Shown: piece after piece, positions 1 through 15,832 of the stretch | Numbering within the stretch: position 1 is the first letter of the stretch | How the letters are laid out: every line of letters begins with the position of its first letter | Source: Methylobacterium nodulans ORS 2060 | Lineage (GTDB): Bacteria; Pseudomonadota; Alphaproteobacteria; Rhizobiales; Beijerinckiaceae | Reading direction: 5' to 3' | Length of the DNA stretch: 64,000 nt | Assembly (NCBI RefSeq): GCF_000022085.1 | Contig: NC_011894.1 | Coordinates: 3,835,001 to 3,899,000 of the forward strand | Program-made: the position numbers and the translations under genes | The notes under the pieces: generated by a model | What the model was told of the DNA's origin: nothing | Database searches by the model: none | What the model saw: the letters and a program-made list of their open reading frames with translations, nothing else

Positions 1-435
1 CACGAGGATGCGCCGGTCCCCGGCCGGCCCCGGGAAGGCATCGCCATAGTTGCGGCGCGCCTCCTCGGCGAACCATTTGACGAAGCTCGCCCCGTACAGC
101 ACCTCGCCCCGCGCCTCGGCGAGCGGCTTGCCCTGCTCGGCCGTCATGATCGCCGCGAGGTCGTCGGCATTCTCCAGGATCAGTGCATTCCAGCGCTCCA
201 GGATCGCGGCGCGCTCCGCCGAAGGCCTCCGCCGCCAGGCCGGGAAGGCAGCTTCGGCAGCGGCGATCGCCGCCTGCGTCTCGGCCTCGCCGCAATTCGG
301 CACCGTTCCGACGCGCTCGCCCGTCGCCGGGTCGATGACCTCGATCACGCCGCCCTCGGCATCGCGCCACGCGCCCGCGACGAAGGCTTGGTTGCGCAGG
401 AGCGCGGGGTCGCGCAATCGGTCCGTCCTGAACAT
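1..435 (-). CDS. gabD: Succinate-semialdehyde dehydrogenase-type aldehyde dehydrogenase (5' part only)
   Basis: The first 145 codons of an aldehyde dehydrogenase; the gene runs off the left edge. Translating the minus strand from the ATG at 435 gives an N-terminus of the succinate/glutarate-semialdehyde dehydrogenase type: a short lead (MFRTDRLRDPALLRNQAF), the segment VIDPATGERVGTVP, a helical stretch with AFPAWRRRPSAERAAILERW, and the family-typical MTAEQGKPLAEARGEV followed by FVKWFAEEARR. Such enzymes oxidise succinate semialdehyde to succinate with NAD(P)+. The catalytic Cys and Glu lie outside the window, so substrate is inferred from family resemblance only. Confidence 0.85.
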   Translation of the reverse strand, partial: MFRTDRLRDPALLRNQAFVAGAWRDAEGGVIEVIDPATGERVGTVPNCGEAETQAAIAAAEAAFPAWRRRPSAERAAILERWNALILENADDLAAIMTAEQGKPLAEARGEVLYGASFVKWFAEEARRNYGDAFPGPAGDRRILV

Positions 436-445
436 GGTTCGCCTC

Positions 446-640
446 TCAGAAGTCGATCAGCACGCGCTTGGTCGGCACGCTCTTGGGCCGCAGATTGGTC
501 ACAACCGCCTTCCGCCCGCGTCCTTGCCGATCTCGGATCGCCCGTATCCCGATCGGGATCGACCGGGTGCCGCGCAGGGTCCGCCTGGGCTCGCAGGCAC
601 CCGGGATCCCGCCGGGGTGGAAGGCTGGGACATTCGCCAC
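446..640 (-). CDS. Short ORF upstream of the aldehyde dehydrogenase, possibly a gene remnant
   Basis: A 64-codon frame that stops 10 bp before the aldehyde dehydrogenase start on the same strand. Its end (AVVTNLRPKSVPTKRVLIDF) looks like the C-terminus of a larger enzyme, while its first half is Pro/Arg-rich and not convincing. It may be the leftover 3' end of a gene once cotranscribed with the dehydrogenase, or a chance frame. I do not recognise a family. Confidence 0.25.
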   Translation of the reverse strand: MANVPAFHPGGIPGACEPRRTLRGTRSIPIGIRAIRDRQGRGRKAVVTNLRPKSVPTKRVLIDF

Positions 641-962
641 AAAGCATTCATGGCCGCGGCACTCATGGGTCCGTGCAAGCCCGGCGGGTCACGATCCGTC
701 TCCAGGCGGGCGGTTCTCTGCGCAGCATAACCCCGCAGCAACGCAGCGCCCCGCCGTCGCGGGGCGCTCCGCCAGGCGATCCTGCCTTTTGCCTGCGCGG
801 CAGCGGCAGGATCTGCCGACCGCAGCCGGCCCATGACAGCCGACGGATCGGGCACGATCCTCGCCGATCGCCCGAAGTCAGCCCTAAGGCCAAACCGGGA
901 CGAGGAACCACAATGGCGCCGTGCAGCTTCTCTCTTGCCACCAATGGCAGGAGGAAGACGTC

Positions 963-1352
963 ATGAAGGCTCCAACTCTGCTCACCGCTGCTGCCATCCT
1001 GACTCTCGCCGCGGGCTCGGCTCTCGCAGGGCCATGCGACACCGGATCCACAAAGGGCAAGAGCCCGGAGCAGCACGCCACCAACACCAAGAGCTCGGAT
1101 GTCGATCAGGGCAGCAAGAACCTGGCTGGCGGGCAGCAGCCGGCCTCTCCGGGCACGGTCGGAGCCATGAACAACGTCGGCGCCAACCAGATGACCGGTG
1201 ACAAGCCCGGCGCGAGCGACACCAGGCAAGGAACCCAAGACCCTGCCAGCAAGAACCTGGCTGGCGGGGCGCAGCCGGCCTCTCCCAAGACGGTTGGCGC
1301 CATGAACAATGCGGGTGCCGACCAGAAGCTTGGCCGGAAGGACGATTGCTGA
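963..1352 (+). CDS. Small secreted protein with a duplicated 24-residue unit
   Basis: 129 aa. The ATG at 963 is preceded by a good ribosome site (GGAGGAAG). Residues 1-22 form a signal peptide ending ALA, so the mature part should be periplasmic or extracellular. The mature chain is Gly/Asn/Pro/Ala-rich and contains one unit twice (about residues 51-74 and 96-119), with the pattern SKNLAGG-QPASP-TVGAMNN-GA, joined by a Gly/Asp-rich linker. Two Cys are present, one near the mature N-terminus and one at the last residue. No catalytic motif is visible. Function unknown; the composition suggests an unstructured envelope or stress-related protein. Confidence 0.75.
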   Translation: MKAPTLLTAAAILTLAAGSALAGPCDTGSTKGKSPEQHATNTKSSDVDQGSKNLAGGQQPASPGTVGAMNNVGANQMTGDKPGASDTRQGTQDPASKNLAGGAQPASPKTVGAMNNAGADQKLGRKDDC

Positions 1353-1667
1353 CCTGACGACCGTCGCCTCGCGCGCCGACATCCGTCTGATTTGTTTCGG
1401 GCGGATGTTGCACGCGGCATTGTCGCGGCTCGGGCCTGTCGGATCGACCAGATCCGTACGCCGGAACGGAAGAACACCCGGCGGAGGGATGGGACCCGGC
1501 CGGGCGGTCTCAGCGGAAAACCTGGTTGGTCCTGCTCGTTGATGCGGGCCTCATCGCGTCTGGTCCGATCAGAACAACGCTGGCCTGGGTGGAAGGGCCC
1601 GGCCGGCGGTGAAGGAAGACATGGCCGATCCGGCCCGACCGGCGGCTGGTCCAGGCCGGCGCTCCTC
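1353..1667. other. Gene-poor gap
   Basis: Between two convergent small genes. I see no convincing reading frame, RNA gene or strong hairpin here. Confidence 0.5.
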
Positions 1668-1937
1668 TCAATGCGTCGTGAAGGGCGCTATCGGTTCGGC
1701 GAAGAGGTCGATCCCGGCCGCATACGCGAAGCTGCCGGTCAGGTTCGCAAGCTCGTCGACCAGATCCGCCGCAGTCATCGAGCGCGACAGGCGGGACAGA
1801 GCCACAGCAAACAGCGCCCGTCCTATCTCATGGTCCGTACATCCCAGTGCGCGCAGTCGGTCTGCTGCGGTTTCGATCCGCTGTATGGCGAGACGGATGA
1901 TCTCGTCGCGCTCTCCTCGACCGTGTTCGACGTTCAT
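1668..1937 (-). CDS. Small conserved-type hypothetical protein
   Basis: 89 aa from the ATG at 1937, chosen over an in-frame start 45 bp upstream because GGAGGGCGAGCC stands immediately before it. The protein is soluble and mostly helical (ERDEIIRLAIQRIETAADRLRALG, then EIGRALFAVALSRLSRSMTAADLVDELANL). No motif assigns a function. It starts 30 bp from a possible divergent small gene at 1967. Confidence 0.6.
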   Translation of the reverse strand: MNVEHGRGERDEIIRLAIQRIETAADRLRALGCTDHEIGRALFAVALSRLSRSMTAADLVDELANLTGSFAYAAGIDLFAEPIAPFTTH

Positions 1938-1966
1938 GGCTCGCCCTCCAAGCGGCACGCGGCTGT

Positions 1967-2146
1967 ATGGCGACCAACGCACAGGGCGGAGTTATTGTTA
2001 CACCCGAGACCCGTGAGCCCGTCATTATCGCTGGCGATGTCTGGGCTTATTGCCCGAAATCCCGGACCGAGGCGCTGTGCGTGATCCGCTCCTGCTCCGG
2101 GAATGCGGCAGGGCGGGCGACCCCGGCCGGCCGTCTTCGGCCGTGA
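1967..2146 (+). CDS. Possible 59-residue protein
   Basis: A frame beginning MATNAQGGVIVTPETREPV with a well-behaved first half (VIIAGDVWAYCPKSR) and three Cys; the last fifteen residues are Arg/Gly/Pro-rich. It is divergent from the gene starting at 1937, leaving about 30 bp between starts. No strong ribosome site precedes it. The composition of the first 45 codons looks coding, but there is no recognised relative. Confidence 0.35.
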   Translation: MATNAQGGVIVTPETREPVIIAGDVWAYCPKSRTEALCVIRSCSGNAAGRATPAGRLRP

Positions 2147-2243
2147 GGCGGCTCCCGCGCCGGCGCGGTCGACCATGCCTGTCCGGGGTTCGTCCGATGA
2201 GGTCACGGCAGGACCATCATGCCGTGGGCGCTCGCGCGCAGGC

Positions 2244-2275
2244 AAAGAAAACCCGCCGCGGCGATGCCGGGCGGG
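2244..2275 (-). terminator. Candidate Rho-independent terminator downstream of repB
   Basis: Read on the minus strand: CCCGCC, a 12-nt loop that can pair further (CGGC with GCCG), GGCGGG, then TTTTCTTT. It lies about 290 bp past the repB stop and beyond the downstream parS-like palindrome, so it could end the repAB transcript. Confidence 0.4.
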
Positions 2276-2513
2276 CGGAGGAGACCTCAATGTCAGTAGT
2301 ACCAAACCTATCCAGCCCTGGCGGGAAGAGGTAGGCGACTTTCGTACATGATTTGATCGTGGACTATGTATCGGCTCGGCCTGACGGGCCCTGCCACCGC
2401 CGTAGCCGGACCCGAGCGACGCGGACACCGCAGGGTCCGCGATCCCACGCCTCGCTCTGTTCGGGATCGGGCATTGCCGGCGGGCTGCCCTGCGCGGGCC
2501 CCCTCCCCCATGC

Positions 2514-2541
2514 GGCGGACTTGTCAGCTGACAAGTCCGCC
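2514..2541. promoter_or_regulatory. parS: parS-like centromere site, downstream copy
   Basis: A perfect 28-bp palindrome centred between 2527 and 2528 with core TTGTCAGCTGACAA. It fits the inner positions of the published repABC parS pattern GTTNNCNGCNGNNAAC, differing only at the outermost G/C pair. It sits 23 bp past the repB stop. The same 14-bp core is the centre of a second perfect palindrome upstream of repA (4946-4969). Confidence 0.75.
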
Positions 2542-2563
2542 AACCCTCTGATGCCAGCGATGT

Positions 2564-3574
2564 CTACCGCCGACGAGCCGCGTCGGGTGCGGTCTCGTCT
2601 CCGGGGCGGCCCGTCTCGAATTCCCGGATCAGGTCGGGGAGGCGTGCCTCCAGAAAGGCCTGGAAGGCCGGGAGATCGCTCGTCAGGCGCAATATTCGCC
2701 CCGTCCGCTCGATCCGGGCGACCGTCTGCCCGCCCCGCAGCCTGAGCGTCTCGCTTCGCGCCGGCGCAGCCTTGGCCTGCAGGCCAGACAGAACAAGGCT
2801 GAAGCGCTGATCGCTGCCCGCGCGCCGGAACTCCTCCGAGGCGAGCACGCCCTGAACCCTGCGGACGGCCCCGTCCTGGCTCAGGAGCTCCACCAGGGCG
2901 AGCCAGCGCGGCCGGCCGACCTTCGGCGCAGGGCCGATCGCCCGGATCAGGTCCGCCGATACGGCGCCGGCGACCGAGAGCAGCCGGGACAGCTCCGGTG
3001 CGTCGACGCCGAGCGCGGCCTGAATGGTCGGACGATCGAAGCGCCGCTCCTCAAGGCTGGCCGCGAACAGCGCCCGCTCGATGAAGCTCAGGTCGCGCCG
3101 CTCATTGTTCTCCTTGCCCTGCGCGATGACGAGCTCACGATCGGACAGGGCCCGCACGATCGCGCGCACCGGGCGGCCGAGCTCGGCCGCTGCCCGCAGG
3201 CGCCGATGGCCATAGGCCGCCTGATACCGCCCCGGGGCCTCGGGATGCGGCCGCACCAGGATCGGCACCTGTTGACCGTGCTCGGCGACGCTCGCTCGCA
3301 GCTGCGTGAAATCCGGATCGGCCGCGTCCGCGATGCGGTCGGCGACGATCGAGGCATCGATGAGGTCGGCATCGAGCTCCACCACCCGCTCGACCTGATC
3401 GAGCTGAGCGCGCAGCTGCCTAGCCTCCTCGGCATCCTTCGAGAGGCGCTGGAGGCCGAGATTCATCGCCTTGATCGCACCCGAGGTCGCGCGCTTGGGC
3501 GAGGCCTCGGATGCGCCGGGCTCGACGGCGAGCCCGCTCGTCAGGATCTCGCGCAGGGCATCCCGTCCCTTCAT
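2564..3574 (-). CDS. repB: Plasmid partition protein RepB (ParB family)
   Basis: 336 aa from the ATG at 3574, which overlaps the repA stop (ATGA). RepB/ParB proteins bind parS centromere sites and, with the RepA ATPase, segregate low-copy replicons. Visible parts: an N-terminal region typical of RepB (MKGRDALREILTSGL), the ParB/sulfiredoxin-type nuclease-like segment around residues 95-165 (LRASVAEHGQQVPILVRPH, then YGHRRLRAAAELGRPVRAIV and the ENNERRDLSFIERA box), and a helix-turn-helix at about 175-205 (TIQAALGVDAPELSRLLSVA). The C-terminal part is the family's dimerisation region. Two matching palindromes flank the operon. No repC follows it, unlike a complete repABC cassette. Confidence 0.92.
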   Translation of the reverse strand: MKGRDALREILTSGLAVEPGASEASPKRATSGAIKAMNLGLQRLSKDAEEARQLRAQLDQVERVVELDADLIDASIVADRIADAADPDFTQLRASVAEHGQQVPILVRPHPEAPGRYQAAYGHRRLRAAAELGRPVRAIVRALSDRELVIAQGKENNERRDLSFIERALFAASLEERRFDRPTIQAALGVDAPELSRLLSVAGAVSADLIRAIGPAPKVGRPRWLALVELLSQDGAVRRVQGVLASEEFRRAGSDQRFSLVLSGLQAKAAPARSETLRLRGGQTVARIERTGRILRLTSDLPAFQAFLEARLPDLIREFETGRPGDETAPDAARRR

Positions 3575-4797
3575 GCCACCGCCCTCCCCCAAGCCTGTCT
3601 GACCAAGGTCTCGATCTCCCGATTCACGGCGTCGAGGGACTCGATCGCCCGATCGTAGGTGTTGCGGTTCATCGTCTCGCGGCCCGCCTCATAGAGGGTC
3701 TGCTTGGACAGGCCGGCATCCGACACGGCCGTGGACTTCACCATCACGCTGGTGAGAACCCGCTCGGCGAACAGGCCGCGCAGGAAGGCCACGATCTGGG
3801 TCTGCGGCCCGTCATTCGGCTCGTAGCGCGTCACCACATAGCGCAGCCAGCTGTAGGAGAGATTGCCCCCTGCCTCGCGCACGACGGCGAGCAGGTCCGC
3901 CGTCATCGACAGGAACTGGTTCATGCTCGCGAGATCGAGCATCTGCGGGTGGATGGTGATCAGCACCGAGGTGGCCGCGCACAGGGCGCTCAGGGTGAGA
4001 AACCCGAGCTGCGGCGGGCAGTCGATCACCACGAGGTCGTAATCGGCCTCCACGGTGGCGAGCGCCCCGGCCACCCGGGCGAAGAACAGGGCATCGCCCT
4101 CGTCGCGCTTGTCGGCCAGCATGCGCGGCGTGTCGTGCTCGAACTCATGAAGCTCGAGATTACCCGGCACCAGGTCGAGGCCGGCGAAGTAGGTCGGCCG
4201 GATGATCTCGGAGAGCGGGCGCCGGGCGTCGTCGTAGCGGATCGCCCCGTACAGCGTCTCGTTGTCGGCGACGTCGAATTCGGGCTGGTAGCCGAACAGG
4301 GCCGAGAGCGACGCCTGCGGGTCGAGGTCGACGGCCAGCACCCGGTATCCGCGCAGCGCGAAATACTGCGCGAGATGGGCCGCCGTCGTGGTCTTGCCCG
4401 AGCCGCCCTTGAAGTTCGTCACCGCGATCACCTGAAGCGGCTCGCCCGGCTGGCGCACCGGCAGGTAGCCGGGCTTGGCCTTCGCCAGGACGCGGCGGAT
4501 CTCGTGGATCTGCTCGAGGCTGTAGGCGCGCCGCCCCGCCGCATTCTTCTCGGGTTCGGGTCCCTCGCCGCCGAGCGCGAGGTGGCGCAGATAGCTGTCG
4601 GTCACGCCGATCAGCCGCGCGGCTTCTCCGCTCGAGAAGCGGCGCAGCTGCTTGCGCGCCTGAGGCGGGAACAGCTTGGCGCGCAGGGCCTGCAGCTGCA
4701 TGCTGAGCGCCTTCGCGTCGCCCGCGATCACCTCGTCCATGGCGAGGCCGGGCTCCCGATTCACGAAATCAAGGCTTTCGGCGGCGACCGTTGGCAT
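3571..4797 (-). CDS. repA: Plasmid partition ATPase RepA (ParA family)
   Basis: 408 aa. RepA is the ParA-type Walker ATPase that drives segregation and represses its own operon together with RepB. An N-terminal helix-turn-helix region at roughly residues 50-90 (FSSGEAARLIGVTDSYLRHLA, GRRAYSLEQIHEIR) precedes the deviant Walker A motif FKGGSGKTTTAAHLA near residue 130, with Walker A' as VDLDPQASLSALFG and Walker B as LVVIDCPPQLGFLT. The start at 4797 has GGGAGAG six bases upstream. Its stop overlaps the repB start by 4 nt, implying translational coupling. A parS-like palindrome lies 149 bp upstream of the start. Confidence 0.93.
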   Translation of the reverse strand: MPTVAAESLDFVNREPGLAMDEVIAGDAKALSMQLQALRAKLFPPQARKQLRRFSSGEAARLIGVTDSYLRHLALGGEGPEPEKNAAGRRAYSLEQIHEIRRVLAKAKPGYLPVRQPGEPLQVIAVTNFKGGSGKTTTAAHLAQYFALRGYRVLAVDLDPQASLSALFGYQPEFDVADNETLYGAIRYDDARRPLSEIIRPTYFAGLDLVPGNLELHEFEHDTPRMLADKRDEGDALFFARVAGALATVEADYDLVVIDCPPQLGFLTLSALCAATSVLITIHPQMLDLASMNQFLSMTADLLAVVREAGGNLSYSWLRYVVTRYEPNDGPQTQIVAFLRGLFAERVLTSVMVKSTAVSDAGLSKQTLYEAGRETMNRNTYDRAIESLDAVNREIETLVRQAWGRAVA

Positions 4798-4945
4798 TCA
4801 CGCTCTCCCAGGCAAATCATGCCTTCTGCCGTGAGATGTCATTGAGCTTGGCAGCAGCACTGCGAGTCAAGCGATTCGGTGACCATGGGCCGCCATGGTG
4901 ACCCACTGGGTCCCGGAAGCCACAGGCCGGGCGTGGCCGAAAACC

Positions 4946-4969
4946 GGCGATTGTCAGCTGACAATCGCC
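4946..4969. promoter_or_regulatory. parS: parS-like centromere site, upstream copy
   Basis: A perfect 24-bp palindrome centred between 4957 and 4958 in the gap between bcsN and repA, with the same TTGTCAGCTGACAA core as the copy at 2514-2541. The flanks differ between copies while staying self-complementary, as expected when only the core is conserved for RepB binding. The rest of the 4798-5160 gap holds no gene that I can see. Confidence 0.75.
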
Positions 4970-5160
4970 TGTTTCGCTTGAATCCGCTGCGTTTCTCGCC
5001 TCCGCCGGGCCTTCTGGCCCTGCACCCGCCAGGACGCCCGTGCGACCGTCGGATCGGGTGCCGGCAGTCGCGCGCACCGGGAGAGGCCGGTCGCGTTACC
5101 CGAAGCATGCGACGCGCCGGAGGACCCCGGATGGAGAGAGGCGGACGCAGATGATCCGCC

Positions 5161-6207
5161 TTACCGGTCAGGGGGCGAACGGAGCGGCGGCGGCCGGTAG
5201 GCCTCCGGCGGGAGGTCGCGCGACAGGCTTTCTCCCGGCGTGCGCCCCGGTGCCGGCTGCGGAGCCAGGTGGGAGCCGCCGGGGGGCGCGGGCGCCGTCA
5301 TCCCGTCCGTGATGTAGCGCTGCGGACCGCTCGGGGCGGAGGCGTCCGGAGGAGCGGCAGGGGGTGCCGGGGCCGCGGGCGCCGGCGGGACGATGTAGCG
5401 GCGCCCGGGTTCAGAGCTGTCGCTCGGCGGCGGAGGGGATGGCGGCGCAGGCGCGGCCGGCGGAGGTTGAGACGGCCGCGCGACGGGTGCCTCGGGAGCC
5501 GTCCTGGCTCGCGCCGGCACCGGCGCGGCGGGCTTGGGCTGGGCTGGACGCGAGCGCGGCTTGGCGGGCCGGGCCACGGGCGGCGACGGGATTGCTTCGC
5601 GAGAGGCGAGTGCCGGGCGGTGCGGAAGGGCGATCGTCATACGCGCGACTGCGCGCAGGAGATCGCCGAGGCTCGCCTGCGCCGTGCGGCAGAGACGAAT
5701 CCGCAGGGACAGGGCCTGCCGGCCGGCGGGCGGCGGCGACAGGGGCCCCAGCAGGCCCGGGCGCTCGTCGCCGCGCGCCGCCCGGGAGGCGCGCTCGAAC
5801 CACTGCCACGCATAAAGACAGTCGGCACTCACCGCGAGGCCGATCGGCCCGTAGGCGTTGCGCTGCGGGGTGGTGACGACGCGCATCATCTGGCCGGGGA
5901 AGCGGGCGGCCAGCTCCCCGGCGATCCCGAGCTCGTTCGGCTTGGCGAGCCGCGGCGGAAAGGCGAGCAGCAGATCCCCGGTCTCGGTGCGCAGGCCCAC
6001 CTCGGCGCGGTTGCGCCCGTCTCCGCCCTCGAACCGGATGTGCTGATCGAAGCCGTCGCGCACCCGAATTTCCTCGATGCCGGCGACCCGGCCGGCCCCG
6101 GGGAGATGGAGCACCGGCGCCGGCTGGGCCAACCCGCGACCGGGCGCGGCCACAACCATGCTCCCGAGCAGGAGCGCCCCGAAGCGAGGGCGTGATGCGC
6201 CCCTCAC
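5161..6207 (-). CDS. bcsN: Cellulose biosynthesis protein BcsN
   Basis: 348 aa from a GTG at 6207 that overlaps the preceding gene's stop (GTGA), the same arrangement as bcsA-bcsB. The first ~28 residues form a signal peptide (RPRFGALLLGSMVVAAPGRG, cleavage near LAQP). The folded part, to about residue 190, carries IEEIRVRDGFDQHIRFEGG, a Cys-containing loop (LAVSADCLYAWQWFERASR) and LSLRIRLCRTAQASLGDLL. The C-terminal half is a long Pro/Ala-rich tail. This layout matches the BcsN family of rhizobial cellulose operons, whose exact role is not established. It is the last gene of the bcs operon; repA follows on the same strand. Confidence 0.75.
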   Translation of the reverse strand: MRGASRPRFGALLLGSMVVAAPGRGLAQPAPVLHLPGAGRVAGIEEIRVRDGFDQHIRFEGGDGRNRAEVGLRTETGDLLLAFPPRLAKPNELGIAGELAARFPGQMMRVVTTPQRNAYGPIGLAVSADCLYAWQWFERASRAARGDERPGLLGPLSPPPAGRQALSLRIRLCRTAQASLGDLLRAVARMTIALPHRPALASREAIPSPPVARPAKPRSRPAQPKPAAPVPARARTAPEAPVARPSQPPPAAPAPPSPPPPSDSSEPGRRYIVPPAPAAPAPPAAPPDASAPSGPQRYITDGMTAPAPPGGSHLAPQPAPGRTPGESLSRDLPPEAYRPPPLRSPPDR

Positions 6208-8198
6208 GGGTGGCTCCGCGGCGGCAAGGCCGTGCGCTCGCCGCCATCCCCGCTCGCGGAGGACTGCCGGGGGACGGAGAAACGGTCGAGCCGGTTCGGT
6301 CCGGCGGCGGCCCGGCTCTGCTCGGCCTGCTGCTCCTGCCACAGCGTGCCGGTTGCCGGCGGGCTTAAAGCCGCCGGCTTGTCGAGGCCGTTATAGCCCG
6401 GCAGCAAGGCGTAGCCGTACCGCTCGTAGGGCATCGCACCGGCGCCGGGCACCCTCCGGGCGACGAGGGGCATGGCGCTCGCCGGATCCTTGGCGTAGCT
6501 GCCGGCCGGCACCGGCTCGGCGAGCGCGCGCTGCAGCGACACGGGAGGGTAGCGCAGCGTGTTCTCCGCCGAGACCGCCAGCGGAAACTCGTTGCGCTGC
6601 ACCGCCGGCGGCCGTTCCTCGCCTTTGCGGCCCAGCGCCGCGTCTGGACGCGGCACGCGCCCATAGGGCGCCGACGACTCCGGCTTGGCGGCAGCCGGCC
6701 CGGCCGGCCGGGCCGGGGAGGGCGGCTGGGCCTGGTTGAGGCAAGGGAGCGGCGGACCGTCCGGATCCTCGCGGAAGACCAGGTCGACGACTTTCGGGAA
6801 CAAGCCGTCGTAGCGGTTCACCACCTCCAAGAAGGCGCGCTGCCGCTTCAGCCGCTGCAGGGTGAGGGCATAGCCGAAGACGGTGGTCTCGCTCGGCAGC
6901 CAGGCGGTGGCGCGCCGGAACCATTCGAGCGCCGTGTCGAACTGGCAGGAATTGTAGGCGTACCACGCCAGCCCTTGCGCGCCCTCGCCGGAGCCGGATT
7001 CGACGACGACCTTGGCGTAGCGCTCGATGCGGGCCGGCTCGATATGGGGGGGGCTCGCCAGCGTCAGCTTCCGCTCGAGAATGTCGATGAACAGGATCTC
7101 GTTGCCGACGAAGCGGTCGCGCCACGCATAGGCGACCTCTTCCGCCTCGCGCGGCATGTTTAGCTCGCGCAGCGTATGGGCGAGCCCATGGGCCACCATG
7201 GCGTCGCCGCCGCGGGCGATCGCCACCTTGAACCATTCGAGGGCCTCCCTGAACTGCTTGCGCTTGTAGGCGTACCAGCCGAGGAGCCCGGTCTGGCTCG
7301 GATCGGCCGACTTGCGGGCATAGGCCTGGAAGGCCGAGAGATCGGCGAGTGTCGGGGGTTGGGCCGGCTCGTCGTGCAGGAAGGCCGCGATCCGCGCCCG
7401 CGTGATGTCGAGGCGGATCGCGTCGAATTCCGAGGTTCCCCCGGCATCCAGGCGGCCCATGGCGATCAGGCGCTCGGCCTGCTCCATCTTGAGATAGGCC
7501 ATCGCCTTCTGGATGGTGGCAAGGCGCGCGCCCGTGTCGTTGCTGGTGTCGAGCACCGACTTGTAGAGCAGGAACGCATCCTCGCCCGCCCCGGTCGCCG
7601 CCAGGGCATCGGCGACGATCCAGATGCTCTCGACATCGGCCGGATCGAGCGCGCCCGGGTCGGCCCGGAACAGAGCGACGACCTCCTCGGGACGCTTGCC
7701 GGCATTTGACTTCGCGCGGTTGCGGAACTCTGCTTGGCGCAACTTGCGAGAGAGTTCCTCGGAGGGCTGCCAAGCCGGCTCGATCGACCGGCGCGCCGTG
7801 ATCGCCGCTCGCAGATCCTCGAAGCGACCCGCCGTGAACAGGTCCCAGAGCGGCGCTTCCTCCGGCGGGCTCGGCTGCAGGCTGTCGAGATCCGGCGGCT
7901 CGGTCCAGCCGGGATAGAGCCGCTTCAGCCGCGCGATCTCCGCCTTCATGCGGTCCGTCTGCTTCTGCGAGGCGTAGTAGCGCAGCGCGCTCTCGTCGAC
8001 CATGCCGGAACCGCCCGACGTATCGGGGTCGACGACGATCGCCGGCGCGCGCGCGCCATCGCCGTAGACGACCCGCGAGGCCGTTTCGGAGCCGCCGACC
8101 GGGGCCGGCTCAGCCGCGAGCGGTACGACGAGAGAGAGACCGAGCAGGATGGCCCAGGGGAGGGCTCGGCACTGCGTGAGGCTCAGCGCTTGAGGCAT
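6204..8198 (-). CDS. TPR-repeat periplasmic protein of the cellulose operon
   Basis: 664 aa from the ATG at 8198, which overlaps the end of bcsZ by 16 nt. A signal peptide (ALPWAILLGLSLVVPLAAEP) leads into a helical-repeat protein. Units such as LGWYAYKRKQFREALEWFKV and LAWYAYNSCQFDTALEWFRR are clear tetratricopeptide repeats. The tail is Pro-rich and low in complexity. In enterobacteria the outer-membrane BcsC couples TPRs to a C-terminal barrel; here TPRs are present but no barrel is visible, so the protein may be the periplasmic scaffold alone, with another protein as the pore. The order bcsA-bcsB-bcsZ-TPR-bcsN supports a role in cellulose export. Confidence 0.7.
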   Translation of the reverse strand: MPQALSLTQCRALPWAILLGLSLVVPLAAEPAPVGGSETASRVVYGDGARAPAIVVDPDTSGGSGMVDESALRYYASQKQTDRMKAEIARLKRLYPGWTEPPDLDSLQPSPPEEAPLWDLFTAGRFEDLRAAITARRSIEPAWQPSEELSRKLRQAEFRNRAKSNAGKRPEEVVALFRADPGALDPADVESIWIVADALAATGAGEDAFLLYKSVLDTSNDTGARLATIQKAMAYLKMEQAERLIAMGRLDAGGTSEFDAIRLDITRARIAAFLHDEPAQPPTLADLSAFQAYARKSADPSQTGLLGWYAYKRKQFREALEWFKVAIARGGDAMVAHGLAHTLRELNMPREAEEVAYAWRDRFVGNEILFIDILERKLTLASPPHIEPARIERYAKVVVESGSGEGAQGLAWYAYNSCQFDTALEWFRRATAWLPSETTVFGYALTLQRLKRQRAFLEVVNRYDGLFPKVVDLVFREDPDGPPLPCLNQAQPPSPARPAGPAAAKPESSAPYGRVPRPDAALGRKGEERPPAVQRNEFPLAVSAENTLRYPPVSLQRALAEPVPAGSYAKDPASAMPLVARRVPGAGAMPYERYGYALLPGYNGLDKPAALSPPATGTLWQEQQAEQSRAAAGPNRLDRFSVPRQSSASGDGGERTALPPRSHP

Positions 8199-9403
8199 GA
8201 CGGATAGCGCATTCGCACCGTGATCAGGCTGAGCAGGTGCAAAGTGGTCGGGTAGTAGTTCTGATTGGGCTGCACGGTCTCCAGGCTCTCCGGCCATGGC
8301 GTGTTGTCGACCGCGCAGGCCACCAGGGCCGGCAGGGCGCCGTAGCCCGGTTCGGTCAGCCATTCCGCCGGCCTACCGTCGCTCGTGTCGACGATCGGCA
8401 GGCGCTCCCCCTCGATCCCGCCCCAGAGCCTGCGGAAGGGCGCGACATCCTCGGGCTGCCCGACGGCGGCCCAGGCCAGGTAGAGAGGAACCCGGATGGC
8501 ATTGTAGGAAAAGAGGGTCGGGAAGCCGTCGGCGGGGCGCACCACATCCGCCTTCGCGGAGATCCACTCGGTCGGGAGGCTGCTCGGCCCGAAGCGGGCT
8601 TGGCGCACCAGTCCGAGGCCGCTGCGGATCACCGCGGCCCAGTCGTATTCGGGCGCGACGATCGGCAGGCGCTGGAAGGCGGGAAACACCCAGTAGGAGA
8701 GGTTGACGAGCGGACCGTCGGACCGGTCCTGCGCGGAGAAGCCCGAGACGGCGGGCAGGATCAGCGGCCCGTGCGGATCCTTGAACAGGATCGCCTTCCG
8801 GCCGAACTCGACGGCGATGCGGCGCGCCGCCGTGCGGTAGGAGGGCTCACCCCAGGCCTCGGCGGCCTCGGTGAGCGCCCAGGCCACCAGGATGTCGCCG
8901 TCGCTCGCGTTATTGAGGTCCGCTACCGCCGGGCGCTTGTCGGGCGCCCAGCGCCACGCCATCAGCGCATCCGGCCGCACCATCAGGTTGGCGCGCGTCC
9001 AGCCCCAGATGCGCTCGAAGCTCGCCCGATCATTGGCCGCGACCGCGAGCAGCATCCCGTAGCCCTGGCCCTCGCTGTGGCTGATCCGATCGTTGGCGGA
9101 ATCGATGATGCGGCCCTGCTCGGTCACGAACTGGCTGCGGTAGAGGCGCCAGGCCGCCGGATCGGCGAGGCTCCCGGCGAGGGTGGGGCCGGCCGCTGCC
9201 GTCGCGCGGCCATCCTGGCGGGGGGAACTCGGAAGCGCGGTCGCGGGCGGCACGGTCGTGGCCTCCGGCTGTTGGGCACGGGGGGCCTGCATCGTGATCC
9301 CAACGGCCACGAGCGCAATCCCGACGAGGCGGCCGCACCGGCTCCGTCCAGAGCGCTCCCCGCCGAAGTGGATGCCGGTTCGGCGTAAGGGAGCGCGAAA
9401 CAT
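8183..9403 (-). CDS. bcsZ: Endo-1,4-beta-glucanase of the cellulose operon (GH8)
   Basis: 406 aa from the ATG at 9403. BcsZ/CelC enzymes cut beta-1,4-glucan in the periplasm and are needed for normal cellulose output. Glycoside hydrolase family 8 features are clear: the general-acid motif SEGQGYGMLLA and the NNASDGDILVAWAL segment with the catalytic Asp region, followed by LSYWVFPAFQRL and NQNYYPTTLHLLSLI. The N-terminus has a membrane segment (LVGIALVAVGITMQ) and a signal-like cleavage region. The ATG and the first ~15 codons lie inside a dispersed intergenic repeat (from 9351), so the true start may have been replaced; no other ATG or GTG fits upstream of the hydrophobic stretch. Confidence 0.88.
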   Translation of the reverse strand: MFRAPLRRTGIHFGGERSGRSRCGRLVGIALVAVGITMQAPRAQQPEATTVPPATALPSSPRQDGRATAAAGPTLAGSLADPAAWRLYRSQFVTEQGRIIDSANDRISHSEGQGYGMLLAVAANDRASFERIWGWTRANLMVRPDALMAWRWAPDKRPAVADLNNASDGDILVAWALTEAAEAWGEPSYRTAARRIAVEFGRKAILFKDPHGPLILPAVSGFSAQDRSDGPLVNLSYWVFPAFQRLPIVAPEYDWAAVIRSGLGLVRQARFGPSSLPTEWISAKADVVRPADGFPTLFSYNAIRVPLYLAWAAVGQPEDVAPFRRLWGGIEGERLPIVDTSDGRPAEWLTEPGYGALPALVACAVDNTPWPESLETVQPNQNYYPTTLHLLSLITVRMRYPSCLKR

Positions 9404-9555
9404 TAGAGACTTGGGAGCCGTGCCCGTTTCAGCCGAAACGGGCACGGCTCTAAGCAGGTTTCGGAAAAGTGCCTTGCGGTTTTCCAGCAAAAACCTGCGG
9501 CATACCAAGAGCCTCAGCAGGCTTGCGGTGGCGTGCCACCGCTTCGCCTGCTGAG
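9351..9555. repeat. Composite dispersed repeat between bcsB and bcsZ
   Basis: Three parts. 9351-9397: the family motif with CCGCCGAAGTGGATGCCGG, also seen at 33341, 40985 (reverse), 53951 and 56403. 9415-9450: a perfect 16-bp stem (GAGCCGTGCCCGTTTC and its complement) with a 4-nt loop. 9451-9555: a block shared in reverse orientation with 63181-63285, ending in a second hairpin (9513-9555, arms CTCAGCAGGC and GCCTGCTGAG). It overlaps the 5' end of bcsZ. Confidence 0.8.
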
Positions 9556-9585
9556 CCGCCGGCCGGATCGGATGCAGCGGCGACC

Positions 9586-12114
9586 TCATCGGCTCCGCCT
9601 GCCGAGATGCCGCACCAGGCTCGTCGTGGTGAGTCCGAGACAGAGGGCCATCAGAAGCGCCATGCCGACATAGATGACGGGATTGAGCGACAGCCACGCG
9701 GCCGCGACGAGCCGGATATTCGTGGGCGACCAGGGCTGCGTCTCGATCAGCCGGATGCGCTCGGGCGCCACCGCGGTGAGCGTGCCGTCGGAGGCGTCGA
9801 GGAAGGCCGCGCGTCCGACGAGATTCTCCCAGACCATGGGGTCGACGAGGCACGACACCGAGGCCTTCAGCATCGACGGATTGGGCGCCGTGACGAGCAG
9901 CAGGGTGTCGCCGAGGCGCTTGGCACCGGGAGCCTCGGCGATGATCAGCGAGGCGCGCGGGTCGACCTCGACCGGGGCCGCAGCCGCGGGCGCGCGGAGG
10001 CGGTCGAGTGCCGCGATCCACAGCGCGGAGGCCGTCCGGGTCGCCGTCGTCCAGCCATTCGCCAGCGAGGCCAGGACGGGGTTGGGCGGGTGCAGGGACG
10101 CGTTCCAGCGGGCGATGAGATCGTGGTCGGAGGGCGGCGGGGCGCTGCGCGGGGGAGGGGAGGGGGCCTGCGCGGCGGGGGCAGCGGCGCGCAGCGGCAC
10201 CGTGGCCGGCGGCAGGGCGCAGCGCATCGGGATGTTGCGGCGCAGCCGGTCGAGGGTGAGGATGCCGGCGGCGCCGAACTGACCGGGTGTCACCACGGTC
10301 TCGGCGCGCGCCTCCCAGATCCGCCGGATCTGGCCGGGGTCGAGTCCGGCGGCCTCGATGGTCAGCGGATTGAGGGCGCGGGCCGGAGCCACGACGAGGC
10401 TCGCCCCGCCGCCCGCTTCCCGCTCATCGGCGCCGACCTCAAAATCGATCACCCGTCCCGCCGCCATGGCCAGGCGGGCGGCCAGAATCGCGGCCGCCTC
10501 CACCGAGTCGCGGTCGGGCGTCGGCAGGACGAGACGCGGGCGCGGTCCCACGGCCACGAACGGAACCGCGCCGGCCTTGACCGCCGCGAGGTCCGGGGAG
10601 CGGACGGCGCGCGCGAGCGGCGGCACCACGAGATGCGTCCGGTCGAGGAACAGGAAGCGGGACCGCTTCGCGCCGGGCGCGAGCGTGTCGCAGGCCCTGT
10701 CGGCCGCGACCGGCAGCTGGGCGGTGATCTCCACGCGGTTCAGGCCCGGCCGCCACAGGCTCAGCGGCAGCGGAATGGCGTTGTCCGCGAAGACCTCCCC
10801 GCGCGCATAGGGAAGCGGCAGGCTGGCGGCGTTCTTGCCGTTGATGTCGACAATGATCTGGGCGGTCGGCTCCAGACCGGACGCGTAGCCGCCCACCAGA
10901 TGGAGCATCACCTTGCCGTAATCGGCCGGCACGAAATCGGCCGGAAAGCGCATCTCGAAGGCGACGCGCATCAACCGGCCATTGAACTCGTGGGACACGA
11001 TGCCGAGCGTGTCGAGGCCGAGGGTCTCGCCGCCGCGGATCGGATAGCCGCGCGCCAGGCTCGCGAGGCGGATGCCCGCGGGCGTGCCGCCCGCATCGCC
11101 GGTGCGGGCCAGCTGGTCGATGGCCTGCCGCACCTCCGCGCCGCTCGGCCCCGTCACGACGAGCGTCGGGGCCCGTCCATCGCGGGCGGACAGAAGGGCG
11201 AGCTTCGGCCCCGTAACCGGTCCGATCTCCTCAAGCCCCTCCGTGCCGCGGATCTCGGACGGGGTCCCGACCACGAGGTTGAGGCCCGCGCGGCCGGCGA
11301 GCGGCGGCCCGAAGCTGACCGCCGGACGGGCGAGCTGGCCGATCAACGCCACTGCCTGCACGGCGCCGATCATCCGCTCCAGACGGTCGAGGCTCGGCTT
11401 CTCGGAGACGGGAAGCCCGATCGGCAAGGCTCCGCTCTCGTCCGGCTCGAGGGCTGCGAGGGAGCGCAGATCGAGATCGCCCGCCGCCGGGACGACCAGG
11501 CCGGAGCGGGAGGGGTCGATCTGGGTCCACAGCTCGTAGGTCGCCGCGAGGGAGCAATCCACGCGATGGCGCTGGCTCGCCGTGACGGTCACGGCGTTGT
11601 AGCCCGGCTTCAGGAGACCGTCCGGCAGCGCGAACTCGACCACCTTGACGGCACCGGGCGCCTGGATCCGGGTCCAGCCGACCTTGGTCCCGTTCACGCT
11701 CGCCGTCAGGCTGGAGGCTTCCGGGGCGACCGAGATGGCGGACAGGTAGGATACCCGCAGCCGGGCCGGTCCGCGCAGCTGCCCCTCCGTCAGGAAGAGC
11801 GGAAACTGCAGGACGTCCTCCTCGCCGGCGAGGCGGAAGCCCTCGGTACCGGCCGGAAAGCGGCGCGCCGCCGCGATCGTCCCCACGATGGGCGCGCGCC
11901 GCCCCGCATCGGTGACCGTCTCCGGGCGGCCGACCTTCGCCGGTGGGCGCTCCGGGGCAGGCGGCGAGCCACGCAGCGCGTCCCCGGACGGCGGCACGGT
12001 CAGGCGCTCGGCCGGGCCCGTGCCGAGAAAGCTCTGTGCCCGCACGGGGGCGCCGGCGAGCGCGCCGGTGAGCAGGGCCAGAGCCTGGAGAATGCGGCGC
12101 GCCCTCACGCTCAC
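9586..12114 (-). CDS. bcsB: Cellulose synthase regulatory/periplasmic subunit BcsB
   Basis: 842 aa from a GTG at 12114 that overlaps the bcsA stop (GTGA). BcsB forms the periplasmic half of the synthase, guiding the nascent glucan and anchoring to BcsA through one C-terminal helix. Visible: a signal peptide (RRILQALALLTGALAGAPVRAQS), a beta-rich carbohydrate-binding and flavodoxin-like tandem (LQFPLFLTEGQLRGPARLRVSYL; VVEFALPDGLLKPGYNAVTV; a second copy around FPADFVPADYGKVMLHLVGG), and the C-terminal transmembrane helix (LNPVIYVGMALLMALCLGLT). A roughly 180-bp repeat separates it from bcsZ. Confidence 0.92.
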   Translation of the reverse strand: MSVRARRILQALALLTGALAGAPVRAQSFLGTGPAERLTVPPSGDALRGSPPAPERPPAKVGRPETVTDAGRRAPIVGTIAAARRFPAGTEGFRLAGEEDVLQFPLFLTEGQLRGPARLRVSYLSAISVAPEASSLTASVNGTKVGWTRIQAPGAVKVVEFALPDGLLKPGYNAVTVTASQRHRVDCSLAATYELWTQIDPSRSGLVVPAAGDLDLRSLAALEPDESGALPIGLPVSEKPSLDRLERMIGAVQAVALIGQLARPAVSFGPPLAGRAGLNLVVGTPSEIRGTEGLEEIGPVTGPKLALLSARDGRAPTLVVTGPSGAEVRQAIDQLARTGDAGGTPAGIRLASLARGYPIRGGETLGLDTLGIVSHEFNGRLMRVAFEMRFPADFVPADYGKVMLHLVGGYASGLEPTAQIIVDINGKNAASLPLPYARGEVFADNAIPLPLSLWRPGLNRVEITAQLPVAADRACDTLAPGAKRSRFLFLDRTHLVVPPLARAVRSPDLAAVKAGAVPFVAVGPRPRLVLPTPDRDSVEAAAILAARLAMAAGRVIDFEVGADEREAGGGASLVVAPARALNPLTIEAAGLDPGQIRRIWEARAETVVTPGQFGAAGILTLDRLRRNIPMRCALPPATVPLRAAAPAAQAPSPPPRSAPPPSDHDLIARWNASLHPPNPVLASLANGWTTATRTASALWIAALDRLRAPAAAAPVEVDPRASLIIAEAPGAKRLGDTLLLVTAPNPSMLKASVSCLVDPMVWENLVGRAAFLDASDGTLTAVAPERIRLIETQPWSPTNIRLVAAAWLSLNPVIYVGMALLMALCLGLTTTSLVRHLGRRSR

Positions 12115-14543
12115 ACCGGTCTCGGCTGACTGCGCTCGGCGGAGAGGAGGCGCTCGTTCTCGAACTCCACCATCAGGCGCACCCAGTCGCTTGCCGGCTC
12201 CGCCTCGGCGGGCGGGCTCCCGGCGGGCTCTGCCCTCGGCCGCTGCGGATCCGGCGCGCCGGACGGGGCCGCCTGAAACCGCGCGATAGCGGGTTCCGCC
12301 GCAGGCGGCGTGATCGGAAGCGCGTCGCCGGCCCAGGCGAGTTCCGCCGGCGGCAGGCTCGGCTCCGCGGCGGAGGGGGGCGGCTCCGGCAGGAACAGGT
12401 AGCGGATCGCCCGCAGCGGCTCGACCAATCCCCACCACGCGAACTGGAGGATGCCGGACAGGATGCTCTTGTGCCGCCGGCGGCGGAGCTGGAAGCGATG
12501 CATCGCCTCGCTGTCGCCGTACATCAGGCCGGCGAGCGCCGGATAATCCTTAGGCCGCAGGCTGCGGAAGCTGAGGCGGCAGACCGCATCCTCGCGGTTG
12601 CGCGCGACGTGATCGAGGATGACCGGCAGGGTCCCGCCTGCCGGCGCGCCTGCGGGCGGAAGCACCGTAAGCAGGCCCGCCATCGGGCGGTGCCCGGCCC
12701 CCGGCGCAAGGAGCTTCGCCCCGAAGCGGATCGTGCAGCCCCGAGCCGATACGCGCTCGATGATGACATCGACCGAGCGGCCTTCGAGCGCGAGGAGGCC
12801 GCGCCGGGCGATCGGCAGCGCGGGCGCCGTCTCGGTCTGCCGACGCTCCGCGCAGACGCCGAGGGCGACGCCCGCCGTCATGAGATTGAAGAAGTTCCAC
12901 AGGCCGACCACCAGCATCAGGTTGGTGACGCCCGGCTCGAACAGGTAGCGCCAGGCCGAGACCGCGCAGCCGACGAGCAGGAGGGCATAGACCGCGAAGA
13001 ACGGCAACGACAGCGCCGAGAGATGATCGTAGTCGAGGCTCAACCCCTTGCGCGTCACGTTGAAGGTGGGCTTGCGGGGCGAGACGATCACTGACGCGAT
13101 CGCCTTGCAAAGAAAAAGACCCTGGATGTATTCGTAGAGCTCTGAGATCAGCGGCCACCGGAACTTGCCATAGACGTAATTCTGCATCATCAGATTGATA
13201 ACGATATAGGTCGCCGTGTAGGCGATCGATTCGTCGACGCTGGCAACGAAAATCTTCAGATCGAAGAAAATATGCAGAAGCGGCGCGAACATGAAGGTGA
13301 GCCGCGGCACCGGAAAGAACCAGAAGCTGATGCTCGACAGGTAGCCGAGCCGCTGGATCGGCTTGAGCCCCTTCTGCAGGAGGGGATTCTTGAGAAGCAG
13401 GATCTGAAACATGCCCTGGCACCAGCGCGATCGCTGGCCGATGAGGTCCGCCAGCGTCTCGGGCTGCAGGCCGGCGATCAGCGGCTTGTCCACGTAGGCG
13501 CTGGTCCAGCCTCGCGCGTGGAGTTCGAGCGCGGTCTCACAATCCTCCGTGATGGTGATGCCGGAGAAGCCTCCGGCCTCGTCGAGGGCGGTCCGGCGCA
13601 GGAGCGCGGCCGAGCCGCAGAAGAAGGAACTGTTCCATTTGTCGAGGCCGCGCTGCGTCACCGCGTAGAACATCTCGTTCTCGGAGGGCATGCGGTCGAA
13701 GGTGCGCAGGTTCCGCTCGATCGGATCCGGATCGAGGAAGGCGTGGGGCGTCTGGACCAGGAAGAGGCGCGGATCGCGCAGGAAATGGCCGACGGTCTCG
13801 CGCAGGAACGACCGGAACGGCGCGTGATCGGCGTCGAACACCGCCACGAGATCGCCGGTCGCGTGGGCGAGCCCGTTGTTCAGGTTGCCGGCCTTGGCAT
13901 GCAGGTTGTCGGCCCGCGTGAGATAGCGAATGCCGAGATCGGCGCAGAGGCGCTGGAGCGTCGCGCGCCGCGCCTGGGCCGCGGCACGCGTCTCGGCATC
14001 GGGATCGGCGCATTTCTGGTCGGTGCCGCCGTCATCCAGAAGCCAGACGGTCAGCTTGTCGGCCGGATAATCCATCTGCCTGGCGGCCGCCAGCGTGAGG
14101 GACAGGATCGCCGCGTCCTCGTTGTAGGACGGGACGAAGACATCGACCCGGGGCAGGTCCTCGGCCGGGCCGAGCGGTGGCGCAGCGCGCCGGAGCGGCT
14201 CCGCATTGATGATCAGGCTCAGAAACAGGATGAACACGCAGTAGAGTTCACCCGCGAGCAGCAGAAGCCCGAAGCCGAAGCTGACCGGATCGCCGGGTGA
14301 CGGCAGCGTGCTCGTGATGCGCCATAGCATGTAGCGCAGCACGACGAGGCTTCCCATGGCGAGAAAGACGAAGCGGGTCCGCGGTCCATCCAGGAACAGC
14401 CACAGGCCGATCATCGCCGCCATGGCCGCGAGGCTCATGGCAAGCTGGTTCTGCGTGCCGACCGGCTGACCGAGGAGAAGCAGGCCCGCCGTCGTCGTGA
14501 TCATCCAGGCGAGCCATCGAATCGCGACCCCCACGCGCACCAT
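12111..14543 (-). CDS. bcsA: Cellulose synthase catalytic subunit BcsA (GT2)
   Basis: 810 aa from the ATG at 14543, which has a purine-rich GGGGGG site; an in-frame start 132 bp upstream adds an implausible N-terminus. BcsA polymerises UDP-glucose into beta-1,4-glucan at the inner membrane. The GT-A motifs are intact: VPSYNED, WLLDDGG, FDADHAP, ITEDCET and QRSRWCQG (QxxRW). About eight membrane helices flank the catalytic domain. A C-terminal PilZ-type domain follows CAERRQ, but the c-di-GMP residues are altered: the RxxxR box reads RRQTE, and the [D/N]xSxxG box reads RVSARG. The tail beyond it is Pro/Ala-rich. Start of the overlapping bcsABZ-TPR-bcsN operon. Confidence 0.95.
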   Translation of the reverse strand: MVRVGVAIRWLAWMITTTAGLLLLGQPVGTQNQLAMSLAAMAAMIGLWLFLDGPRTRFVFLAMGSLVVLRYMLWRITSTLPSPGDPVSFGFGLLLLAGELYCVFILFLSLIINAEPLRRAAPPLGPAEDLPRVDVFVPSYNEDAAILSLTLAAARQMDYPADKLTVWLLDDGGTDQKCADPDAETRAAAQARRATLQRLCADLGIRYLTRADNLHAKAGNLNNGLAHATGDLVAVFDADHAPFRSFLRETVGHFLRDPRLFLVQTPHAFLDPDPIERNLRTFDRMPSENEMFYAVTQRGLDKWNSSFFCGSAALLRRTALDEAGGFSGITITEDCETALELHARGWTSAYVDKPLIAGLQPETLADLIGQRSRWCQGMFQILLLKNPLLQKGLKPIQRLGYLSSISFWFFPVPRLTFMFAPLLHIFFDLKIFVASVDESIAYTATYIVINLMMQNYVYGKFRWPLISELYEYIQGLFLCKAIASVIVSPRKPTFNVTRKGLSLDYDHLSALSLPFFAVYALLLVGCAVSAWRYLFEPGVTNLMLVVGLWNFFNLMTAGVALGVCAERRQTETAPALPIARRGLLALEGRSVDVIIERVSARGCTIRFGAKLLAPGAGHRPMAGLLTVLPPAGAPAGGTLPVILDHVARNREDAVCRLSFRSLRPKDYPALAGLMYGDSEAMHRFQLRRRRHKSILSGILQFAWWGLVEPLRAIRYLFLPEPPPSAAEPSLPPAELAWAGDALPITPPAAEPAIARFQAAPSGAPDPQRPRAEPAGSPPAEAEPASDWVRLMVEFENERLLSAERSQPRPV

Positions 14544-14996
14544 CCCCCCATCGCCGCTGGGACGCACGACGGCATCGCCTAGGGCCGAAACCGACTCGAA
14601 GCCTCCGCATAAGCGCTCAACTGTGGCAATTTTCGAGAATTTCTCAGCGGCGCCGCAGGGACGGCGATCGCACATCCGGATGCGATTGCGCAGGGTTACT
14701 GCACAATGCGCTTTGAATTATGACACCATACAGTCAGCAGCATGCATGTATTGCGGTCTTGCTTGATGCGAGGCCGATCACACAGTTGAGGATGAACCGC
14801 GCGCGAGACTATCCCAGGCTACCTATATCGATCCTTTCGGGCAAGCCGGAAACAGTCGAGCAGTACCGACTCATGGCGTGCAATTCATTCGCGGTCCTCA
14901 AATCGCGCGGACAAGCGCCTTGCGCCTCTTCGGCATGGCGCATCGCGAGCCCCTGCCAGACATCGTGAGCGCCGATCCGCCCGCGCGGATGTGTGA
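14544..14996. other. Leader region of the bcsA operon
   Basis: A 450-bp gap between the frameshifted bcsS and bcsA. It is locally AT-richer (around 14600-14760). On the minus strand it contains CATAAT-like -10 candidates, but I cannot assign a promoter with confidence. No reading frame is convincing. Confidence 0.4.
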
Positions 14997-15832
14997 TCAA
15001 AATGTCGCGCGGGCCTCGACGCTCGTGTAGTATCCCGATTTCTGCACGCGGTCGTGGACGTAGCCGGCTCCCAGCGAGACGCTCACAGGCCCGAAAGAAA
15101 TGCCCGTCAGATGGGCGCCGATGCGATACTGGCGGAAGAAGTCGTCGCCGAGGAACAGGGCCTCGGGTCCGATATACGCGCCATCCGCCACCATGTAGCC
15201 GACGCGGAAGTGTGAATAATAGGCGTTGAACTTGGTCGAATACGAGCCGTAAGCCGAGACCATGGTGCGGTCGGTCGGGGTCGCGTAGAAATTCGCCGCG
15301 ACCTTCAGGCCGACGCCGGTCCCGACCACGGGATTGCCCGGATCCGGAACGGAGAGCTGGTTGCTGCGGACATTGAAGCCGATGAAGCCTGCAAGGGCCG
15401 CATCGCGCCACACCCACTCGTAGCCGCCGAGCACCGATCCTTCCTGCTGGTAGCCGGTCACGCGGGTGGCCACCGCCTGGCCCGGATAGGAATAGGTGCC
15501 GGCCACCCCCTCGACGCGGATGCGCGGGCCGCTCTGCGTCGCCGGCCGACCGGCGCCGCCGTGATCGTCACGGAGCCGAAGGCGGAGCTGTTCGAGGTCA
15601 GGCTGGTCGAGCCGTCGACGGCGACGGCCCAGCTGTCGTCGACCTGCTGCTGCTGGGCGCCGGTGTACCAGTCGGGCGCGGTGCCGGCGGCGGACAGATC
15701 CGCGGCCGCAACGGCCGAGGTGGCGAGCAGCGGCACGGTTGCGGCGAGGAGAACCCGAGGGGCCGCCGGGCGCCGCGTGGCCCGATTTTCGCTGACCCGA
15801 TGTTTGCTGAACGTCCGCAAAGCGGCCTCCAC
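14997..15832 (-). pseudogene. bcsS: Cellulose biosynthesis protein BcsS, frameshifted
   Basis: Two frames together make one BcsS-like outer-membrane protein. The first, from the ATG at 15832, has a signal peptide (VLLAATVPLLATSAVAAADL) and runs through SWAVAVDGSTSLTSNSSAFG. It leaves homology near 15535-15555 and turns into Arg-rich nonsense. The second frame continues at once with SGPRIRVEGVAGTYSYPG and a beta-barrel-like remainder (GYEWVWRDAALAGFIGFNVR; VSVSLGAGYVHDRVQKSGYY) to the stop at 14997. One missing base, or two extra, would restore a single frame of about 278 codons. Either a real mutation or a sequencing error. The gene lies upstream of bcsA on the same strand. Confidence 0.7.

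Follow-up and report, generated by a model that had tools for sequence, protein, structure and literature searches.

Near the left end of the window, the 64,000-nucleotide stretch analyzed here (C7:3,835,001-3,899,000), two adjacent genes of plasmid partition families, repA and repB, lie between two perfect palindromes (Table 1). Contig C7 is the 7,772,460-bp chromosome of Methylobacterium nodulans ORS 2060, whose genome comprises 8 contigs and 8,839,022 bp. Both genes score far over the family cut-offs (348.45 for TIGR03453 and 201.5 for TIGR03454). The repB gene likely starts at the ATG at 3574 rather than at the TTG at 3592, since the ATG gives a 4-base ATGA overlap with repA, an overlap likewise annotated in two relatives. 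RepA and RepB are 80% and 58% identical to their counterparts on Methylocystis bryophila plasmid pDSM21852-1, and the nearest relative of RepB, at 63% identity, is encoded by a Methylobacterium metagenome-assembled genome (MAG), G307.

Table 1. Features of the repAB locus (window coordinates; the parS assignments are predictions).
Feature	Position	Strand	Description
Stretch where relatives carry repC, ctRNA and S-element	1..2513	.	None found
parS site 2 (predicted)	2514-2541	.	28-bp perfect palindrome, core CTTGTCAGCTGACAAG, 22 bp beyond repB stop
repB (ParB-type centromere-binding protein)	2564..3592	-	Full length; TIGR03454, 348 bits
repA (ParA-type partition ATPase)	3571..4797	-	408 aa, full length; TIGR03453, 645.7 bits
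parS site 1 (predicted)	4946-4969	.	24-bp perfect palindrome, core ATTGTCAGCTGACAAT, 148 bp 5' of repA

Upstream of repAB and in the same direction runs a cellulose synthesis cluster (5161-15506) with bcsN, a GH8 gene, bcsB, a cellulose-synthase-like gene and bcsS; the gene calls of this cluster leave out the open frame at 6204-8363. The palindromes are not bcs promoters, given that the bcs genes point towards repA. A link of repAB to the bcs operon was also rejected, as the bcs cluster lies megabases from repAB in two other Methylobacterium genomes, G288 and G289. Matches to BcsA in plasmids are all below 60% identity (80 records), reaching at most 50.9% among the 12 listed. On the other side, two small open frames without Pfam matches, 921-1352 and 1668-1982, adjoin the repAB cassette; at the DNA level, a 77% relative of the first is present at another location in G288 and G289.

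The first-pass annotation had described the palindromes, their lengths and a shared 14-bp core exactly, and had placed them correctly just past repB and upstream of repA. They have the 14-mer TTGTCAGCTGACAA in common and are the two longest of the 7 perfect palindromes of at least 16 bp in the window; 400 kb sampled from the same chromosome yielded 2 perfect palindromes of at least 24 bp. The upstream one grows to 34 bp (4941-4974) if one mismatched pair is allowed, 16 of the 17 arm positions being paired. A search of the window for the 14-mer that tolerated 2 mismatches found it twice, against 0.01 expected from shuffles, and its only 2 exact copies in the whole genome (about 0.005 expected from base composition) are those flanking repAB. 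A DNA search with positions 2200-5200 revealed no further copy of the palindromes in this genome, only other repAB copies at 67 to 74% identity.

The 14-mer occurs in 12 of 248 family genomes at 20 places, of which 19 fall within 2 kb of a RepB match (E value threshold, 1e-20). Two places are out of the ordinary: the one in G155 has no RepB match nearby, and that in G113 falls within the coding sequence of a repB. Within the genus, 2 of 111 genomes hold the 14-mer, and in the second one (G263) it likewise stands beside a RepB gene. The full arrangement, in which copies of the 14-mer lie on both sides of repAB (here called bracket-type), one ahead of repA and one beyond repB, is seen in 11 of 159 RepB loci (139 distinct), with the two sites about 2.3 to 2.4 kb apart. 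Besides the window, these loci belong to G017, Methylocystis bryophila, Methylocystis sp. H62, Agrobacterium tumefaciens Tul002 (pAt), Mesorhizobium denitrificans, Ochrobactrum sp. CGA5, Ensifer adhaerens ST2, Neorhizobium galegae DS1499, Rhizobium sp. PDO1-076 and one Rhizobiales genome. The Methylobacterium MAG G307 carries GTTGACAGCTGTCAAC at the same two positions. Nine further plasmid records, some of them rhizobial, extend the pattern: the core is present at one or both places in seven, namely two with both exact sites, three with one exact and one single-mismatch site, and two with one exact site whose records begin at repA; the remaining two (Afipia and Pseudoroseomonas) are without this core. 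Palindromic sites beside repAB, as expected of a ParABS system, are shared with RepB relatives.

A close plasmid counterpart, M. bryophila pDSM21852-1, has ATTGTCAGCTGACAAT at both of the same positions; it differs in being a 175-kb plasmid with ctRNA, S-element and repC. The site past repB occupies the place of the one that plasmid relatives have between repB and repC; there, ctRNA and/or S-element follow the second site in 7 of 8 cases. A repC gene follows it in 9 of 10 bracket-type relatives; no repC was found for the tenth, L120, whose contig is 3.4 kb long and stops about 0.7 kb beyond repB. Two RepC proteins gave no tblastn match in the window or in a 19-kb stretch beginning left of it, 5 kb of which are masked; the RepC family PF03428 matches in this genome on contig C5 only and not on the chromosome, and Rfam detected neither ctRNA nor S-element in the window. 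The chromosome has its own ordinary ParB-type parS, TGTTTCACGTGAAACA, which with up to 1 mismatch occurs only near 1.097 Mb (C7:1,096,439 and 1,098,440) and is absent from the window. Being chromosomal, with an ordinary parS elsewhere and no repC, ctRNA or S-element found, the locus is not a replicon but a partition cassette without repC, corresponding to the partition half of a repABC unit.

The idea that a whole plasmid has integrated here is considered unlikely: besides the missing replication functions, neither the window nor L015 contains a tRNA, and there is no mobility gene among the neighbors scanned with Pfam, which cover part of the predicted genes and exclude the masked 5 kb immediately left of the window. 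The pattern of GC skew over 20 stretches, each of 20 kb, was not clean enough to place the locus relative to origin or terminus. Genes for repAB standing apart from repC have been noted earlier, in the accessible text of PMC2783167, and a plasmid-type rep locus with parS is also known from a Methylobacterium chromosome, the dcm region of M. extorquens DM4; as described in the portion available of PMC2680597, that region differs in having a complete repABC with ctRNA and the parS GTTCTCAGCTGAGAAC. We found no openly available paper, as distinct from subscription literature, that combines M. nodulans with repB, plasmid and genome.

The unique occurrence of the sites, their position and their conservation in relatives support the original proposal of a parS pair. 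On this sequence evidence, the two palindromes are very probably the parS centromeres of the repAB genes they enclose, in a cassette that would derive from a repABC plasmid and has its replication half absent. A RepB dimer probably binds the 14-bp core and would hardly read, or not read, the base pair just outside it, such that A..T, C..G or G..C could serve. RepB would load onto DNA from both sites, RepA would then act on the RepB-DNA complex, and repression of the operon may be aided by the site that precedes repA. The source may have been a repABC plasmid of the group seen here in Methylocystis, Rhizobiaceae and their neighbors, and the copy now on the main chromosome, without repC, ctRNA and S-element, may constitute a stand-alone partition and incompatibility module.

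Another question is whether such a module still works. An idle relic of an integrated repABC plasmid, a reading that disputes present function and not the identity of the sites, is possible although somewhat unlikely. It accords with the lack of a RepC match on the chromosome and of ctRNA and S-element, with the absence of plasmid-type genes among the Pfam-scanned neighbors, and with repAB not adjoining the cellulose cluster in the two other genomes of the genus. It fits poorly with repA and repB both being full length, and with palindromes perfect at 24 and 28 bp when, of the 20 sites that the ten bracket-type relatives have, 19 fall short of 24 bp. A further argument against it comes from other repAB loci that stand without repC on chromosomes of the genus. 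They form two groups with canonical parS, carrying GTTGCCAGCTGGCAAC in one case and GTTTGCAGCTGCAAAC twice, 36 bp apart, in the other. The groups (L091, L095, L098, L101 and L104; L093, L094, L100, L102 and L105) are syntenic in five Methylobacterium genomes each, on contigs of 6.2 to 7.0 Mb, and have low median dN/dS ratios of 0.05 and 0.098 for RepA and 0.169 and 0.21 for RepB (10 pairs each). None of the examined genomes has an orthologue of the window copy in the corresponding location. Since these other repC-less loci are long-term residents of Methylobacterium chromosomes, a retained function of the window copy is plausible by analogy.

A domesticated, replication-free parS-repAB-parS unit that anchors or segregates a region far from the ordinary parS, or expels incoming plasmids sharing its centromere, is a speculative and rather unlikely proposal. 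In the case of expulsion, incompatibility would act as a form of defense. The unit would be one of several RepAB units found on Methylobacterium chromosomes. The repC-less chromosomal setting itself raises the question of why these chromosomes keep plasmid partition genes. The same genome has a second chromosomal repAB without repC (L012 8468-10674, C7 at about 5.978-5.981 Mb), whose nearest RepB relative is in G288; no GTT-type palindrome lies beside its genes, and near-palindromes (7 of 8 pairs) are found only inside repB. On the 458-kb contig C1, repAB genes (L013 7554-9724) likewise occur with no RepC match, and presumably serve beside another initiator.

Could the palindromes mainly be operators for repAB autorepression rather than centromeres? 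One site does lie upstream of repA, and RepA together with RepB represses repABC operons, according to the accessible text of PMC4492784. The second site, past repB, is where no repAB promoter would be expected, and strong repression in Rhizobium leguminosarum TA1 did not need parS, while its parS sites exerted incompatibility (PMC4492784). In the same source, removal of the RepB site in pTiR10 raised transcription about fourfold, so that some regulatory part for the sites is possible; as their main role, we consider autorepression quite improbable. The TA1 plasmid pRleTA1c, which has a parS on either side of the gene pair, upstream of repA and downstream of repB, also offers an experimental precedent for the arrangement in the window, although it is a plasmid with repC and the comparison is by site position and not by parS letters (PMC4492784). 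That the palindromes are RNA hairpins (terminators) with an incidental shared core is highly improbable, for although the 24-bp palindrome scored terminator-like on the strand opposite repAB, terminator-like sites numbered 1 against 1.1 expected from shuffles, and the core letters, beyond mere pairing, are common to relatives.

Taking the palindromes as parS sites, we compared them with the repABC parS consensus, GTTNNNNGCNNNNAAC or GTTNNCNGCNGNNAAC as quoted from Cevallos et al. in PMC9040568; the survey in PMC9040568 used a fixed GTT...AAC pattern with an outer G..C pair. The window sites resemble it as 16-bp palindromes beside repAB with the TT....GC....AA frame and TIGR03453 and TIGR03454 partners, but their outer pairs are C..G and A..T, and neither matches the search consensus. 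The change of the outer G/C pair, pointed out in the first-pass annotation, is therefore real, and it recurs in relatives. In a manually compiled tally of bracket-type loci from the RepB scan and the further plasmid records, excluding G307 and sites with a core mismatch, the upstream outer pair is A..T in 8 of 14 sites, A..C in 3, and C..T, G..C and G..T in 1 each; downstream, it is A..T in 14 of 17, and C..G, A..A and A..C in 1 each. As A..T dominates while all these other pairs occur, the outer pair looks unread or relaxed rather than re-specified. The annotation had further suggested a variant recognition group. A RepB clade, described below, speaks for such a group, whereas a switch to a new specificity does not fit an outer pair that looks relaxed, nor is the 14-mer confined to the group, since canonical G..C surrounds it at 12 of the 20 family places, in loci outside the bracket architecture.

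The outer-variant group spans plasmids and contigs of Rhizobiaceae, Phyllobacteriaceae, Brucellaceae and Methylocystaceae, with the related core GACA in Acetobacteraceae and Roseomonadaceae. A search with the fixed GTT...AAC pattern, as in the PMC9040568 survey, would miss many of its sites. Neither the 14-mer nor three 16-mers turned up in any openly available paper found, subscription literature being outside the scope of this search.

A RepB tree was built from 125 rows by a quick method with SH-aLRT support only, after removal of exact duplicates and of 13 rows with an internal stop in the aligned stretch, including that of the bracket-type locus L114. The window RepB falls in a 12-row set (SH-aLRT, 96) made up of 10 outer-variant rows, 1 without a site (L150) and 1 canonical row (G307). 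A neighboring set with the core GACA (RepBs of Acetobacteraceae, Acidocellaceae and Roseomonadaceae) is mostly non-canonical too. The outer-variant label requires 10 changes on the tree against a shuffled mean of 18.9, indicating that this state arose or was lost several times.

Which residues might accompany the loss of reading? After removal of RepBs contained within a longer one, 153 RepBs were divided by their sites into 33 non-canonical only, 76 canonical only, 4 mixed and 40 with none; these sequences are related by descent, so the residue counts are not independent. Leu205 is found in 29 of the 33 non-canonical-only RepBs and in 7 of the 76 canonical ones, and Met191 in 1 of 33 versus 54 of 76. 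Residue 198 is Lys or Arg in 75 of 76 canonical RepBs, with Lys in 17 of 33 non-canonical ones. The window RepB has Gln191, Ala198 and Leu205; the canonical G307 RepB of the same 12-row set has Met191, Lys198 and Ile205.

Position 198 aligns with Arg173 of Caulobacter ParB, one residue past the computed match, and Arg173 bonds to guanine 1 of parS, as the accessible text of PMC7383237 describes. The same source offers a parallel in that ParB parS and the Noc site NBS are likewise set apart by G changing to A close to the outer end; the base concerned is 7th from the dyad and the one in repABC sites 8th, making the positions analogous rather than established equivalents. Lys198 is kept in 8 of 9 listed bracket-type relatives and in all 7 further plasmid records with the motif, whose outer pairs are mostly A..T, so the outer-pair variation is not accounted for by residue 198 on its own. 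Position 191 may track inner rather than outer bases, given that Gln191, as in the window, is present in all 5 canonical RepBs that share its inner core GTCA; their residue 205 is Ile in 3, Val in 1 and Leu in 1. With these facts against simple readings of 198 and 191, position 205 is the best single marker found, albeit with exceptions. The clade offers a compact test case for how reading of a single base is lost in a ParB protein, centered on positions 191, 198 and 205. Three other Methylobacterium repABC loci, L085, L089 and L090, carry paired ATTGTCAGCTGACAAT or CTTGGCAGCTGCCAAG between repA and repB, which are further outer-variant sites outside the RepB clade of the window.
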